Assembly (NCBI GenBank): GCA_020350445.1
Contig: CP070717.1
Location: 4,997,354-5,030,740 of the forward strand
DNA length: 33,387 bases
Origin: Acidobacteriota bacterium
Lineage (GTDB): Bacteria; Acidobacteriota; UBA6911; RPQK01; JAPXNP01
Reading direction: 5' to 3'
Shown: piece by piece, positions 17,003 through 23,466 of the stretch
Layout of the letters: each line of letters begins with the position of its first letter
Position numbering within the stretch: the stretch's first letter is position 1
Notes under the pieces: generated by a model
Told to the model about the DNA's origin: nothing
Seen by the model: the letters and a program-made list of their open reading frames with translations, nothing else
The model's database searches: none
Translations under genes and position numbers: made by a program

Positions 17003-17761
17003 ATGCAACCTCTTTATCGCGCACTTCAGGAGATTCAGGATTTTACGCTGCTGGCGGTGAAGTCGATCTCCAACCTGTTCAAGACTCCAAGGTATTTCCA
17101 GGATACCTTTCAGCAGATGGATGCGATCGGTGTGAGTTCCCTTTCGATCATCATCCTGACGGGATTCTTCACAGGTGGAGTACTGGCCCTCCAGTCTTCG
17201 AAGTCACTCCAGTCATTCGGAGCAGTCAACCTGACGGGGCAATTGGTGGCCCTGTCCCTGATTCGGGAGCTGGGTCCCGTCTTGACAGCACTGATGATCG
17301 CTGGCCGGGTTGGATCGGGTATCGCTTCAGAGCTGGGCTCCATGATCGTCACCGAACAAATCGATGCAATGCGCGCTCTGGGTACGGATCCGACCAAGAA
17401 GCTGGTAACTCCTAGAATGGTAGCTTGTACGACGATGGTACCCCTCCTGACTGTGATGGCGGACCTTTTTGGCCTGATCGGAGGCTGGATCGTCGCGTTC
17501 TACACTCTCCGGCTGAATACGAACCTGTATTGGAGTACGGCCTTGCGCTCAATCGAGTACATCGATGCACTCGAAGGACTGCTCAAACCGATCGTCTTCG
17601 GTTTTATCGTCGGAATGATTGGCTGCTACTTCGGCCTCCGAACGACAGGTGGCACCCGAGGAGTGGGTGAATCGACGACGCAGGCTGTTGTCTTCGCCTC
17701 GATCACCGTGATTGTCTGTGACTTCTTCCTCAGCAAGATCATCCTGGAGCTACGGTTTTGA
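17003..17761 (+). CDS. mlaE: MCE/Mla-type ABC transporter permease
   Basis: A 252-residue inner-membrane permease of the MlaE/YrbE/TGD1 family, which moves phospholipids between inner and outer membranes together with an MCE protein and an ATPase. The family hallmark is clear: LIRELGPVLTALMIAGRVGSG followed by ASELGSM, TEQIDAMRALG and a proline-containing coupling segment TDPTKKLVTPR. Five to six hydrophobic stretches follow an amphipathic N-terminal helix. Its TGA overlaps the TTG start of the ATPase (TTGA, 17758-17761). It is the first gene of a four-gene plus-strand run. Substrate direction cannot be read from sequence. Confidence 0.95.
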   Translation: MQPLYRALQEIQDFTLLAVKSISNLFKTPRYFQDTFQQMDAIGVSSLSIIILTGFFTGGVLALQSSKSLQSFGAVNLTGQLVALSLIRELGPVLTALMIAGRVGSGIASELGSMIVTEQIDAMRALGTDPTKKLVTPRMVACTTMVPLLTVMADLFGLIGGWIVAFYTLRLNTNLYWSTALRSIEYIDALEGLLKPIVFGFIVGMIGCYFGLRTTGGTRGVGESTTQAVVFASITVIVCDFFLSKIILELRF

Positions 17762-18552
17762 ACGGGATTCGATTCGAGACAGTCAGCAAATCGTACGATG
17801 ACCAGGTCGTATTGGACAGGTTTTCGATGTCGGTGGAAACAGCCGAGATGAAGATCATCCTGGGCGGAAGTGGCTCGGGGAAGTCAACGATCCTGAAGAT
17901 GGTCCTCGGACTGATTCGACCCGACAGTGGATCGATAACGGTAAGTGACCAGTCGATCAATGAACTGGATGAAGAAGAGCTGATGCCCTTGCGGTCGAAG
18001 ATTGGCATGGTGTTTCAGGAAGGCGCGCTTTTTGACTCCTTGACGGTGGCGGAGAATGTCTCTTACCGGCTGAGGGAACAGAAGTCCGGGAGTGAGGAAG
18101 AGATCCGGGCGATTACTGAGGAGGTACTCGGTTTTGTCGGCCTGGGGGATGCGATCGACAGGATGCCTTCGGAGTTGTCCGGAGGGATGAAGCGACGTGT
18201 AGCCATCGCTCGTGCCCTGGTGGGCAACCCTTCGATCATGTTGTACGATGAGCCCACTGCGGGGCTCGATCCGATCACGAGCCGGACGATCTGTGAATTG
18301 GTCATGCGACTTCGAGATCTCGAGCAAGTCACGACGATATTTGTGACTCATGACTTAAAATCAGCGATGACGATGGCCTCGGAGAAAGCGTTCCGGGAGG
18401 AAAACGGTGAAGTGCAGTTTCGGAGAACACCGAACGGATCAAATGGCAACACGGGTTTTATCATATTGGAGAGTGGTCGGACCCTGCTCGAAGGTCAACG
18501 AATCGACCTTGAGCGGACCGATGATACATATATCAGGGAATTTCTAGATTGA
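17758..18552 (+). CDS. mlaF: MCE/Mla-type ABC transporter ATP-binding protein
   Basis: A 264-residue ATPase with Walker A GGSGSGKST (36-44), Q-loop FQEGALFDSLT, signature LSGGMKRR (140-147), Walker B IMLYDE (160-165) and H-loop H198 in FVTHDLKSA. The GALFDSLTVAENV and LSGGMKRRVAIARAL wording is typical of MlaF rather than importers. After the H-loop, an extra stretch of about 25 residues (about 212-235, rich in E, R, N and G) separates the core from the last strand and FLD end. The start is TTG, overlapping the mlaE stop as TTGA, which suggests translation by re-initiation. Confidence 0.93.
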   Translation: MNGIRFETVSKSYDDQVVLDRFSMSVETAEMKIILGGSGSGKSTILKMVLGLIRPDSGSITVSDQSINELDEEELMPLRSKIGMVFQEGALFDSLTVAENVSYRLREQKSGSEEEIRAITEEVLGFVGLGDAIDRMPSELSGGMKRRVAIARALVGNPSIMLYDEPTAGLDPITSRTICELVMRLRDLEQVTTIFVTHDLKSAMTMASEKAFREENGEVQFRRTPNGSNGNTGFIILESGRTLLEGQRIDLERTDDTYIREFLD

Positions 18553-18562
18553 GGACTAGCGA

Positions 18563-19969
18563 ATGAGTGCCAGAAAAGGCCCCAGCTTAGCTGAACTCCG
18601 GGTTGGCATATTCGTGGTGGTGGCATGTGCGATTCTCGCACTGGCTATTTTCGCGATCGGCTCACAGGTCGGCCTGTTCGAACACCAGTTTCGAGCGATC
18701 ACATATCTCAACAACATCTCAGGCCTCAAGCCGGGGGACGTCGTTCTTCTGGGTGGTGTCGAGGTGGGAAATGTTGACCAGGTCCGGATCACACTTTCGG
18801 ATGAAATCCCCAGTACGGCCCGGAATGACCAGATTCTGCGTCGTGTTCAACAGTATCGATCCGAAATTGACATCCTTCAGACCGCGTTAGCCGAGACAGG
18901 GTCACGCCTCGAAGAGGCACGGACAGAACTCCAGCAACGACTGCAGCAGGTGCCGGATACCGCACCGGAGCTCGTTCCAATCCGAAGTCGCATTACGGAC
19001 CTGGAAAGGAAGACACGTCAACAGGAAGATGACATATCCGAGTTCGAGAGAGACATCGATAACGAGATGTCGAATCTCCAGAACATTGAAGTCCTGATGC
19101 GCATCAACTCCGAGTATCGCAGCTGGATACGGGCCGACAGCAGTATTTCGCTGGGTTCCATCGGCCTGCTCGGTGACAAGTACATTGAGATCTCGATGGG
19201 ACGCACCGATGAGCCGTCCCCAGAGACCACCATCCTGGTCGAGAGCTGGCTGGGAGACTCCGACGTCAGCGTGATTGTGGTGACCGGTACCCAGCAGGCA
19301 TCTTTCGCAGAGTTGATCACCGGGGCAAATGACATCCTGGCTAATTTTGAAACACTTTCCGACCAGTTCCAGGACATTATGCGCAGTTTTGAACTCGGCC
19401 AGGGAACGGTAGGTAAATTCATCACCGACCCCTCTTTCTACAACAACCTGAACAAGACGGTGGAGAACGCCAACAAGACGATGGAGAGCATCCGCTCGCT
19501 GACCAGTAACATCGGTGACGGCGGTGGAACCCTGGGCCGACTCATAAACGATGAAGAGCTCTATCAGGACATCTCCTCGGCGGTGGCCAATCTCGAAGGT
19601 ACCCTCGCAAAGATCAACGCGGGGGAGGGGACCTTGGGAAAGTTGATCAACGAGCCCTCTATCTATGACAATGCCAACCAGGTGATTGCCGATGTCAGCG
19701 AGGTCACCCGGCGTATCAAATCGGGTGAAGGCACCCTCGGGCAGCTCTCGACCGATGATCGCCTTTACGTGTCATTGCGTGAATCGACAGAAGAGTTGTC
19801 GGCAATTCTGAAAGATGTGCAAGACGGGAAAGGAACGCTCGGGAAGCTGGCCAAGGATGAAAAACTCTACGGCAGTATCAACGATGCTTCGGCCGAGATT
19901 GTTAAACTACTCTACGATTTTCGACAGGATCCCAAGAAATTCCTGACGATCAAGTTTGAACTCTTCTAG
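18563..19969 (+). CDS. MlaD-like MCE protein with helical insertion and C-terminal repeats
   Basis: A 468-residue periplasmic lipid-binding protein with one N-terminal transmembrane helix (about 14-36). The MCE domain appears in two halves: FRAITYLNNISGLKPGDVVL with GGVEVGNVDQV (about 43-76), then IEVLMRI...ADSSISLGSIGLLGDKYIEIS (about 175-211). Between them lies an inserted stretch of about 95 residues (80-174) that looks like a helical hairpin: heptad-like E/L/Q/R segments (88-128 and 141-172) joined by a proline-rich turn. After residue 240 come five repeats beginning at 279, 320, 354, 388 and 422, each led by a GEGTLGKLI.D..LY-type motif. MCE proteins form hexameric rings or tubes carrying lipids to the outer membrane. 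It starts 10 bases after mlaF. Confidence 0.93.
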   Translation: MSARKGPSLAELRVGIFVVVACAILALAIFAIGSQVGLFEHQFRAITYLNNISGLKPGDVVLLGGVEVGNVDQVRITLSDEIPSTARNDQILRRVQQYRSEIDILQTALAETGSRLEEARTELQQRLQQVPDTAPELVPIRSRITDLERKTRQQEDDISEFERDIDNEMSNLQNIEVLMRINSEYRSWIRADSSISLGSIGLLGDKYIEISMGRTDEPSPETTILVESWLGDSDVSVIVVTGTQQASFAELITGANDILANFETLSDQFQDIMRSFELGQGTVGKFITDPSFYNNLNKTVENANKTMESIRSLTSNIGDGGGTLGRLINDEELYQDISSAVANLEGTLAKINAGEGTLGKLINEPSIYDNANQVIADVSEVTRRIKSGEGTLGQLSTDDRLYVSLRESTEELSAILKDVQDGKGTLGKLAKDEKLYGSINDASAEIVKLLYDFRQDPKKFLTIKFELF

Positions 19970-19980
19970 GACAGATAAGC

Positions 19981-20592
19981 ATGATATCGGAAAAAATTGG
20001 TGATGGTGCTCAAGTTCTCCTTCGAAAGATCATCTCCTTTTTGATCTTTCTTCATATCCGCCCCAACCACCTGACGTTTATAGGTTTCTTGATGAGCATC
20101 GTGGTGGCCTACATCTTCGCGACGGGCCAGTTCAAGCTGGCCGGAGTCATGCTAATCGTTGCGGGACTGTTTGACATGGTGGATGGCATGGTGGCTCGCA
20201 AGCTCGGGGAAGTCACTCCTTTTGGAGCCTTCTTTGACTCCATCATGGATCGTTACTCCGATCTCGTGATGTACCTTGGTCTGGTGATCTACTACGGTCA
20301 GGCCGGGCGGAACAACTATGTTGTCCTCGTGGGGATCGTCATGATGGGTTCGGTTCTGACCAGTTATGCCCGGGCTCGGGCTGAATGCCTGATCCCGAAG
20401 TGCAAGGTGGGCTTTCTGGAACGACCGGAACGGATCGTCCTGCTTCTCATCGGCTCCTTCTATTTCATGGACCCGATTCTCTGGGTGATTGCTGTAATCT
20501 CCAACTGGACCGTCGTTCACCGCATCCTCTATACGCGGGCCGAGTTGAAAGGGAAGAGATCGGTGGTGAACTGGGTGGAAAACGAAGGCTAG
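19981..20592 (+). CDS. CDP-alcohol phosphatidyltransferase family protein
   Basis: A 203-residue integral membrane enzyme. The eight-residue CDP-alcohol motif is complete: D65, D68, G69, A72, R73, G82, D86 and D90. It binds two metal ions and joins a CDP-linked lipid to an alcohol acceptor. The SYARARAE segment and GFLERPERI near residues 122-145 are typical of the phosphatidylinositol-phosphate/archaetidyl-type and related PgsA-like subgroup; the acceptor cannot be fixed. About six hydrophobic segments are visible. It follows the MCE gene after 11 bases, tying lipid head-group synthesis to lipid transport. It converges on the LolA-like gene. Confidence 0.9.
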   Translation: MISEKIGDGAQVLLRKIISFLIFLHIRPNHLTFIGFLMSIVVAYIFATGQFKLAGVMLIVAGLFDMVDGMVARKLGEVTPFGAFFDSIMDRYSDLVMYLGLVIYYGQAGRNNYVVLVGIVMMGSVLTSYARARAECLIPKCKVGFLERPERIVLLLIGSFYFMDPILWVIAVISNWTVVHRILYTRAELKGKRSVVNWVENEG

Positions 20593-20616: not shown

Positions 20617-21300
20617 TCAGCCTCCGATGATCTTGGTGTCTTTGTCCAACTTCACCTTGAAAGAGCCCTTCGAGATCTTCGCATTGAGCTCGATATTGGA
20701 AAAGCGTATCAACAGGTGATCTTCGGTTGGCTCAACCAGCTTCTGCTGAACAGGCACCCAGATACCGGGGTCAATCCAGAGCTCGATTCGAGTGAAGAAA
20801 GCCCCGACCTTGTCAGACTTCGGTTTCAGCTGCAGGCGATGGCAGTTCGTCCCCTCGACCGCTTCATCACCCAGGTATTCGATGTCGTAAGTCTCTTTGA
20901 GCATCGCGGAATCCGATCCAAATCCGAGCAGCAGGAATTCCGCTTTATCACCATGCTTACCCAGTTGATAGCGCTGGGCCTGTTTGATGGCGGGTTCATA
21001 GAATGTGACTTCGCCTTCACGAATGACCAGTGAATTATTGGTGGGTCGGGTGATATCCTTCCGCAAATAGACCGTTTCGGCCCGGAGAAAAAGGAGTGTT
21101 CCCTCCTCGCCCGCATCATACTCCTCGATGATATCAGTCCATTTCTTCTGCTGGATATCGGCCTTCATGCTTTTGAGCGTCTTTCCCACGGCCTCCATCT
21201 TGCTGAGGATCTGATCGAGATCAGCGCCGGAGACAGACCCGCAAAACACTACCAGGCACCAAACGAAGATCCAACCGACTCTTACCTTGAAGTTTTGCAT
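20617..21300 (-). CDS. LolA-like periplasmic outer-membrane lipoprotein carrier
   Basis: A 227-residue protein with an N-terminal export signal (hydrophobic 9-24, cleavage near SVSGA) and no lipobox, so probably soluble in the periplasm. The mature part has LolA features: an opening amphipathic helix (DLDQILSKMEAVGKTLKSMK), long beta strands such as FLRAETVYLRKDI, an EGEVTFYEPAIKQAQRYQLG segment and FTRIELWIDPGIWVPVQQKL near the end, comparable to the LolA/DUF4292 fold. LolA accepts lipoproteins from LolCDE and carries them to the outer membrane. It is the last gene of the minus-strand Lol-like set. A GTG three bases upstream is an alternative start. It could carry another lipid. Confidence 0.8.
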   Translation of the reverse strand: MQNFKVRVGWIFVWCLVVFCGSVSGADLDQILSKMEAVGKTLKSMKADIQQKKWTDIIEEYDAGEEGTLLFLRAETVYLRKDITRPTNNSLVIREGEVTFYEPAIKQAQRYQLGKHGDKAEFLLLGFGSDSAMLKETYDIEYLGDEAVEGTNCHRLQLKPKSDKVGAFFTRIELWIDPGIWVPVQQKLVEPTEDHLLIRFSNIELNAKISKGSFKVKLDKDTKIIGG

Positions 21301-21343
21301 CACTAATTCTTTTAGATTGATGATCGAACGAATTGTTGCGGCC

Positions 21344-21626: not shown

Positions 21627-22373
21627 TCAGCCCGTGGTCTGCTCGATTGGATAGACAAGATTCTTGACCCGATTCAGCACGCGACCGTCCCGCATCTCCA
21701 TCATCCGAGAGGCGACCGATGCCGCTTCGGGATCATGGGTGATCATCACGATCGACTGCTTATATCTCTGATTCAGGTCCTGTAGCATCTGGAGAACCAT
21801 CTGGGAGTTCTCTGAATCCAGATTACCTGTGGGTTCATCGGCCAACAGAATCGCGGGCCGATTGATCACCGCGCGGGCAATCGCGACCCTCTGCTGTTCA
21901 CCACCCGACAGTTCGGAGGGTCTGTGGTGCAGTTTCCCTTCCAGACCGAGCATCTCCAGGATCTCACGCACGGTGGAATCACTTCCCCGTCCCTGGCCAT
22001 TCCCGTGAATACGCCGGGCAAGCTCGATATTCCCCTCCGCACTCAGCGTAGGAAGAAGATTGAACCGCTGAAAGACAAACCCGATCTTCTTGCGGCGAAC
22101 CTCGGTCCGCTTGGCATCACCGACCTTCGCCAGGTCTACACCTTCGATCTTCACCGATCCGGTTGTCGGAGTTAACAGTCCACCGATGAGATGGAGGAGG
22201 GTTGATTTCCCACATCCGCTGGGTCCCATGACCGCGAAGAATTCCCCTTCCTTGACCGTCATATCGACGCCGCGAAGGGCTGGAACTTCAACCTTGCCCA
22301 CCCGATAAACCATCTGCAGGTTTTCGGTGACTACAATATCTTTTCGCTGGCTCATGCCAATAGTTTTACTCAT
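21627..22373 (-). CDS. LolD/MacB-type ABC transporter ATP-binding protein
   Basis: A 248-residue ATPase of the MacB/LolD/FtsE group. It has Walker [10 protein letters not shown] (50-58), a Q-loop in [19 protein letters not shown], signature [14 protein letters not shown] (155-168), Walker [17 protein letters not shown] (175-190) and a His in MITHD. GFVFQ.FNLLP and DEPTGNLD are the markers that separate this group from importers. It pairs with the FtsX-type permease upstream, whose last eight bases it overlaps. Two starts are possible, at 22373 and six codons later. The window's second such ATPase (mlaF) belongs to a different transporter. Confidence 0.93.
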
Positions 22374-23457
22374 AACCCAGTGCTCTTACCGGATCCAGCT
22401 GTGCGGCCTTTACGGCCGGATACAATGCACCCAACGACCCTCCCGCCAATGCCAGAGCTGCAGCCGCCAAACGCCAGTAGGCGGGTATATAGACCGGCAT
22501 ACTCGGAAAGGTCACCAGAATAAGCTGGATCGCTATGAAAGTCAAAATAAAGCCTAATACAACACCTAAAACACAAATCAGAATCGACTCCTTCAGGATC
22601 GATTGCACGATATACATTTTAGAAGCACCCAGAGATTTCAAGATACCGATCTCCCGGGTCCTCTCCGTAATTGTACTGTACATTGCAAGCAGGACGATCA
22701 GAAAACTGATCACAACAGAAATCGCAACAATCGCCGTCAGGAACTGTTTGAAGACCGGCGTATTCGCCGCCATGATCTCCTGTAATTCCGATGTCTTCGT
22801 GATCTTGTAATGGGGCATCCGTTCATTCAAGCGTTTGAACACTTCCTCGGAGGATTCGCCATCCTTGACCCGAACAAAGAACATCGTCGCCTTATCCGGC
22901 GCACCAATCATCTCCTGGAGCGTCTGCATCGGCATCAAAACACGCGCGGCGGTACCCTGCTCAAACACTCCTGAGATCACAAAATCATTCCCCAGGATTT
23001 CCAGGGTGTCGCCGACGGACACGGCTCGCGAACGAGCATAGATCGTATCCACCACCACCTGCTTCGGCTCAGTAAAGAGTTCACCATCCACAAAGCGCAG
23101 AGTGGTGTTGACGCTCAGAAAGCTCTCCTTCTCGATCCCAAAGACGATATGAAACTTGTCATTGAGGAACTTGACCAGGATGGGCGCCGCAGCCTCCACC
23201 CCATCGACCGTCTCAATCACCTTCTGAATCTTGACGGGAAGCGTTCCGCTATTGAGCGCCAGGATCAATGACGCATCGGGCGGCTGAACCATGAAGTCGC
23301 CACCAACCCGCCTGGTCCGCTCAGCGGTATCGGTCAACTGTCCATAAGTCAGCCCAACACTGACCAGGATGAGTACGACTCCTACCGAGATCGCCAGCAT
23401 ACTGACGATTGTCCGCGTCGGTCGCTGCAAGAGATTCGAATAGATATGTTTAATCAT
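22366..23457 (-). CDS. FtsX/MacB/LolC-E-type ABC transporter permease
   Basis: A 363-residue permease with the four-helix MacB/LolCE topology. TM1 is near the N-terminus (about 16-36), then comes a periplasmic MacB-PCD-like domain of about 200 residues and three helices in the FtsX domain. The latter carries the coupling segment [19 protein letters not shown] and ends [19 protein letters not shown], both diagnostic. The set has only one permease, so it would work as a homodimer, as in LolF-type systems, rather than as a LolC/LolE pair. The start ATG at 23457 is preferred to an upstream TTG. It lies 9 bases after the LolB-like lipoprotein gene and shares an overlap with the ATPase gene. Confidence 0.92.
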
Positions 23458-23466
23458 GACTATCAA

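Follow-up and report, generated by a model that had tools for sequence, protein, structure and literature searches.

Long, envelope-spanning MlaD proteins are thought to be used by most bacteria, but few such proteins have been studied; the long form is the majority bacterial one, accounting for 85% of homologues (PMC10665443). In Mce1, PqiB, Veillonella MlaD and Brucella MpcD, the helices that follow the MCE domain form, or are predicted to form, a six-helix tunnel (PMC9882608, PMC10665443, PMC12436622). Mce1 has a needle of kinked helical repeats that ends in a six-stranded barrel, to which every chain contributes a single C-terminal strand (PMC9882608). Here, we analyzed a 33,387-nucleotide stretch of an Acidobacteriota genome (the window; contig CP070717.1), in which an intact open reading frame with an ATG start (18563-19969, plus strand) encodes a long MlaD protein of 468 residues. 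Its MCE domain is interrupted by a helical hairpin and is followed by five tandem repeats. All features described below lie on the plus strand unless stated otherwise, and "class" and "order" denote the bacterial class and order of the source organism.

We favor the reading, to which we give a probability of roughly 0.72, that this protein supplies the MCE component of a minimal transporter of the MlaEFD type, and that it builds a homohexameric lipid tunnel which spans the envelope and bears six coiled-coil struts on the rim of its ring. Six copies of MlaD would form an MCE ring above the MlaE2F2 ATP-binding cassette (ABC) transporter in the inner membrane, and five kinked 34-residue helical repeats from each of the six chains would make a hollow, lipid-carrying needle through the periplasm, nearly fixed in length and closed near the outer membrane by six C-terminal strands forming a small barrel. 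The insert between beta-4 and beta-5 would be an antiparallel coiled-coil hairpin of about 5.5-6 nm at the ring's outer rim, so that six struts would stand beside or around the needle base. Gene context, the presence of a single MCE gene, the anatomy of hairpin and repeats and the pattern of conservation were observed in the present data, whereas the hexamer, tunnel, barrel, lipid cargo and rim position are all proposed by analogy with relatives; a hexameric tunnel is very probable on these grounds, and the topology makes a position of the hairpins at the outer rim nearly as probable.

The protein family and the type of system were assigned with high confidence. The mlaE, mlaF and mlaD genes lie together, MlaA and MlaC were not found, and the protein is predicted, in a low-confidence model, to extend into long post-MCE helices. 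Genome-wide, there is one MCE gene and one MlaE, and profile searches of the genome (scored 86% complete) detected no member of the MlaA, MlaC or PqiC families, with Escherichia coli and Caulobacter as positive controls; this set of components matches that of the described MlaEFD bridge (PMC10665443). A canonical, shuttle-based Mla system as in E. coli, comprising MlaFEDB, MlaC and MlaA, was rejected, with neither MlaA nor MlaC found and TIGR04430 scoring 59.3 bits versus a cut-off of 135, and so was a PqiB/LetB type, with only one MCE domain present and no PqiC family protein found.

Like the long MlaD of Veillonella parvula, the protein has a single MCE domain, an N-terminal membrane helix and long post-MCE helices, and is encoded in the order mlaE-mlaF-mlaD in a genome without detectable MlaA or MlaC. 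Veillonella MlaD differs in ending in a ten-stranded barrel per chain (PMC10665443), where the present protein has one conserved putative strand, and no beta-4/beta-5 hairpin was found described for it in the available text of that paper. Resemblances to Mce1 (PMC9882608) are repeats that would form kinked helices behind the ring and a strand-like tail, both read from the sequence and modeled at low confidence, together with a Foldseek match and a predicted supercoil pitch near the measured one. Mce1, however, is heterohexameric, and each of its chains has eight repeats, whereas a single gene, five repeats of the 34-residue type and a long ring-domain hairpin are found here. Brucella abortus MpcD likewise combines one MCE ring with a needle of helical repeats, mounted on a transporter of the MlaEF type (PMC12436622), but the Brucella Mpc system has a PqiC-like lipoprotein, MpcA, and no PqiC family protein was found here. 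The Leptospira Mce family NF047463 has a GTLGKL-type repeat, matched at residues 335-388 (whole-protein E value 6e-21); at 75 bits versus a cut-off of 400, the protein is not a member of that equivalog.

At the position of the hairpin, Acinetobacter baumannii MlaD has a helical insert of 45-47 residues (PMC6365058, PMC7677376), which was termed unique to that species and of unknown role (PMC6365058), and Mycobacterium tuberculosis Mce4A has an extra helix in the same loop (PMC8420772). The A. baumannii insert also lies between strands 4 and 5, and the profile of the present family aligns through it; yet that MlaD is a short protein without needle repeats, encoded in an operon with MlaC, and its insert is half as long, with no extended coiled-coil hairpin reported for it. 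The preliminary description of this locus held that canonical MlaD has neither hairpin nor repeats. For E. coli MlaD the statement is correct, but it does not mark the present protein as odd: since long MlaD is the majority form, the repeats and the long shape are unexceptional, and A. baumannii carries an insert at the same site. What is new here is an insert found throughout a class, its two sizes with a 42-residue loss at the tip, the fast divergence of its surface versus a kept core and base, and a nearly fixed needle length. In the open-licence literature, we found no description of a long coiled-coil hairpin at this site, in a long MlaD, class-wide and with discrete lengths, though one may exist elsewhere; in the same literature, no paper was found on the GTLGKL repeat motif, nor any naming Acidobacteria together with MlaD and MCE.

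The interrupted MCE domain and its hairpin

The Pfam MlaD family PF02470 matches two separate parts of the protein, at about 47-76 and at 171-213 (E value 1.2e-11; 45.2 bits versus a cut-off of 25.1), in close agreement with the halves first proposed at 43-76 and 175-211, and it matches all 39 proteins of the family sample, which also served for the needle and motif counts. An AlphaFold2 monomer model was built from an alignment of these proteins. In the model, MCE strands flank the insert on both sides (42-49, 60-63 and 66-76 before it; 175-182, 194-200 and 205-210 after it) and together complete one barrel, interrupted between strands 4 and 5; a barrel continuous elsewhere in the protein, which would have spoken against a split domain, is not what the model contains. 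The first half, with the strands up to beta-4, spans residues 42-76 (18686..18790), and the second half, residues 175-213 (19085..19201), carries the motif GLLGDKYIEI, the hydrophobic pore loop of an MCE beta-barrel. The best solved matches in Foldseek were MlaD and Mce1 chains. The N terminus is predicted to form a transmembrane helix (residues 9-38; 18587..18676), as its hydrophobic sequence also suggests.

Between the two halves, the model places a hairpin of two helices, with a predicted local distance difference test (pLDDT) score of 94-98 over residues 90-169. Arm 1 covers residues 86-127 (18818..18943) and arm 2 residues 135-170 (18965..19072), joined by a non-helical turn at the tip, residues 128-134 (18944..18964). 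Hydrophobic residues recur in both arms with a period of exactly 3.5 (P = 0.01 and 0.0005 against shuffles; P = 0.0004 and <0.0002 for the family mean). Positions a and d are 67% aliphatic or aromatic versus 9% elsewhere, figures that describe the hydrophobic stripe rather than test it, because a and d were assigned from that stripe. Some 95 residues of heptad-like helix-turn-helix, with helices expected over 80-174, had been proposed from the sequence. The hairpin and its periodicity were borne out, with one correction: the helices begin at residue 86, and residues 78-85 are a linker with conserved residues. Matches inside the insert to coiled-coil Pfam families (Seryl_tRNA_N, Enkurin and others) and to Rad50/SMC NCBIfam models were below cut-off and scattered among members, and were set aside as coiled-coil background. 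The anatomy of the protein as described is held with high confidence.

Residues 214-239 (19202..19279) form the beta-6/beta-7 region, with modeled strands at 221-228 and 231-239; compared with most of the class, this order has about 11-14 additional residues there. In E. coli, MlaC docks on the corresponding loop (PMC10245069, PMC11289387); the region is extended here although no MlaC was found in the genome.

The insert across relatives

Insert length was counted between positions 78 and 176. All 33 measurable orthologues in the class carry the insert, in two sizes of 54-57 and 89-99 residues. Outside the class, one of 16 sampled Acidobacteriota proteins has the insert, at 91 residues (L022); in the remaining 15, as in a Bdellovibrionota protein, the site holds an ordinary turn of about 5-14 residues. 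In a tree built after removal of the insert columns, presence versus absence requires one change (support 88/92), whereas the long and short states need at least two changes each, because the short-form family f3 sits with the long group. The sequence missing in f3 corresponds to one gap of 42 residues at the hairpin tip, and the step from 99 to 57 residues equals exactly six heptads (6 x 7); no lineage has lost the insert. The short form is again modeled as a confident hairpin (helices 88-109 and 115-130), its arms reduced from 42 and 36 residues in the long form to 22 and 16. Strict quantization of all insert lengths in heptads was rejected, as 89, 91, 93, 94 and 54 fit no steps of 7. Within the sampled tree, a ring-rim loop probably grew into a long coiled-coil hairpin on a single occasion, and one family subsequently lost 42 residues of it.

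Mean identity is 24-26% in the arms (24-30% with the tip included) versus about 73% in the MCE halves. The hydrophobic core positions and the base residues P83, T85, N88, N171 and Q173-I175 are kept, as are the motifs P-x-T-x-x-N, where arm 1 begins, and N-x-Q-N-I, where arm 2 ends. The hairpin has no obvious conserved contact surface. A surface that diverges fast on a kept core and base, in two length classes, is the pattern expected of a strut anchored in the rim. As the insertion site is a ring-rim loop, it is reasonable to infer that six hairpins project from the hexamer, where they would most likely act as braces or spacers (toward the needle base, neighboring subunits, the membrane or the cell wall) rather than provide a surface for specific binding. 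The bracing role itself is a guess that we hold at slightly less than even odds.

The same divergence and the changes in length could reflect a nearly neutral decoration, in which a loop grew at a permissive MCE turn and the coiled coil was kept for folding or solubility; the extra helices in the same loop of A. baumannii MlaD and M. tuberculosis Mce4A would accord with such growth (PMC7677376, PMC8420772). Against this stand the retention of the insert in every measurable orthologue of the class with its core and base residues conserved, and the lineage that shortened it by exactly six heptads where none discarded it, and we consider this explanation unlikely. In a further reading that we consider unlikely, the six hairpins would surround the base of the needle as a dedicated second layer of structure, an outer collar or docking crown working with the ABC transporter or the cell wall; such a layer would define the class and have no described counterpart beyond the short A. 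baumannii insert.

By analogy with periplasmic adaptor proteins, which dock on TolC through hairpins, the hairpins of MlaD might be docking arms for a partner: a shuttle in the periplasm, an accessory subunit comparable to LucB of Mce1, or a factor of the outer membrane or cell wall. Retention of the hairpin across the whole class fits this idea, as does the extension, in this order, of the loop that docks MlaC in E. coli (PMC10245069, PMC11289387). However, the arms and tip are poorly conserved, the tip has been cut back in one lineage, MlaC was not detected in the genome, and no dedicated partner gene was recognized beside the operon, where the neighboring genes encode a lipid synthase and a LolA-like protein; we regard docking arms as improbable. 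A class-wide counterpart of the A. baumannii insert, together with its natural length variants, provides material for testing the role of inserts at this site.

The repeat region and the C-terminal tail

Five repeats follow the ring domain, starting at residues 279, 320, 354, 388 and 422 with spacings of 41, 34, 34 and 34, exactly as the preliminary description had placed them. Repeat analysis gave repeat 1 (279-319, 41 residues; 19397..19519) and four repeats of 34 residues each: repeat 2 (320-353; 19520..19621), repeat 3 (354-387; 19622..19723), repeat 4 (388-421; 19724..19825) and repeat 5 (422-455; 19826..19927). Their mean pairwise identity is 0.33 versus 0.07 in shuffles, of which the maximum of 5,000 was 0.12. 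Across the family, repeats are spaced by 34 and in places by 41 residues, some individual ones being too diverged for the search pattern. Of the 39 proteins, 38 have 206, 209, 211, 213 or 220 residues in the region corresponding to 243-455, and L045 has 199; the main steps (206, 213 and 220) are of 7 residues, with 209 and 211 as exceptions. The needle varies by at most about 7% in its main range, whereas the insert ranges from 5 to 99 residues; within the sample the two lengths are correlated (Spearman 0.77, without correction for common ancestry). This near-constancy offers a natural ruler for asking whether such tunnels must match the width of the periplasm, and with the variable insert it shows modes in which long MlaD proteins vary.

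The dominant hydrophobic period of the needle is 3.4, equal to 34/10 and preserved by the longer spacing (41/12 = 3.42), and the hydrophobic stripe runs unbroken through the repeats. By arithmetic (3.6 residues per turn, rise of 1.5 Å), this period would give a left-handed supercoil with a pitch of about 90 Å, where a plain heptad would give about 190 Å; the pitch of the Mce1 needle is about 75 Å (PMC9882608). The best Protein Data Bank sequence match of the needle profile (residues 231-468), to designed antiparallel coiled-coil barrels (sc-apCC-6; E value 1.5e-7), likely reflects periodicity, not homology.

The protein ends in the tail DPKKFLTIKFELF (residues 456-468; 19928..19966), which at 79% mean identity in the order is the most conserved of the stretches compared. 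Within it, P457 is invariant, and L461, I463 and F468 are kept at 90% or more in the 39 proteins. By analogy with Mce1 (PMC9882608) and with two barrel-less long MlaD proteins predicted to build a C-terminal barrel from single strands (PMC10665443), the tail is a putative strand, one per chain, of a six-stranded barrel.

The repeats had been suggested to form either a tube or a peptidoglycan-crossing brush. The tube is far better supported, because relatives build, or are predicted to build, a six-helix tunnel from their post-MCE helices and the repeat region is nearly fixed in length. A flexible fringe or cell-wall-binding array without a closed tunnel, to which the low-confidence monomer model and the Gly-rich breaks between helices might point, is very unlikely given that almost invariant length, the continuous hydrophobic stripe, the tunnels formed or predicted in studied relatives (PMC9882608, PMC10665443, PMC12436622) and the lack of any recognized cell-wall-binding family in domain searches.

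Several points weigh against the transporter reading that we favor. The absence of MlaA, MlaC and PqiC depends on profile searches of an 86%-complete genome. In the monomer model, the helices of 248-455 are present with low confidence, at a pLDDT of about 40-60, and the tail stays below 50 with no strand formed; model confidence in helical regions is likewise low for the Veillonella and the Brucella relative (PMC10665443, PMC12436622). Moreover, the fast surface divergence of the insert fits a nearly neutral decoration as well.

Operon and genome context

The mlaE and mlaF genes lie directly 5' of mlaD, and a phosphatidyltransferase gene lies 3' of it. The permease gene mlaE (17003..17761; PF02405, E value 9.7e-79; TIGR00056 above cut-off) overlaps by 4 bases the gene for an MlaF-like ABC ATPase (17758..18552; PF00005, E value 1.2e-34). 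The downstream gene (19981..20592) encodes a CDP-alcohol phosphatidyltransferase resembling phosphatidylinositol-phosphate synthase (PF01066, E value 3e-21; NF045883 below its cut-off). The order mlaE-mlaF-mlaD-phosphatidyltransferase is kept in most class relatives with loci reaching that far, and the position of the last gene hints at a link between the synthesis and the transport of a particular phospholipid. A phosphatidylinositol-phosphate-synthase-like gene also lies near mlaD in a Terriglobia relative (L034).

BamD-like and LolA-like proteins are both encoded within the window, so a two-membrane envelope is likely in the source organism. The LolA-like gene (20617-21303, on the strand opposite to the operon) adjoins the operon in many relatives, usually after the phosphatidyltransferase gene. 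Beside it, 21627-23466 encodes a LolD-like ATPase and a MacB/FtsX-like permease, possibly a lipoprotein-sorting system or a MacB-type exporter.

No viral relatives were found, nor any plasmid relatives of the needle. Two class members have additional MCE paralogues (G029, C11:16356-17066; G034, C205:6674-7234), of which that of G029 is without the hairpin, as indicated by hit spacing. Among order relatives, MlaE is about 72-86% identical versus 44-58% for MlaD within the same operon.
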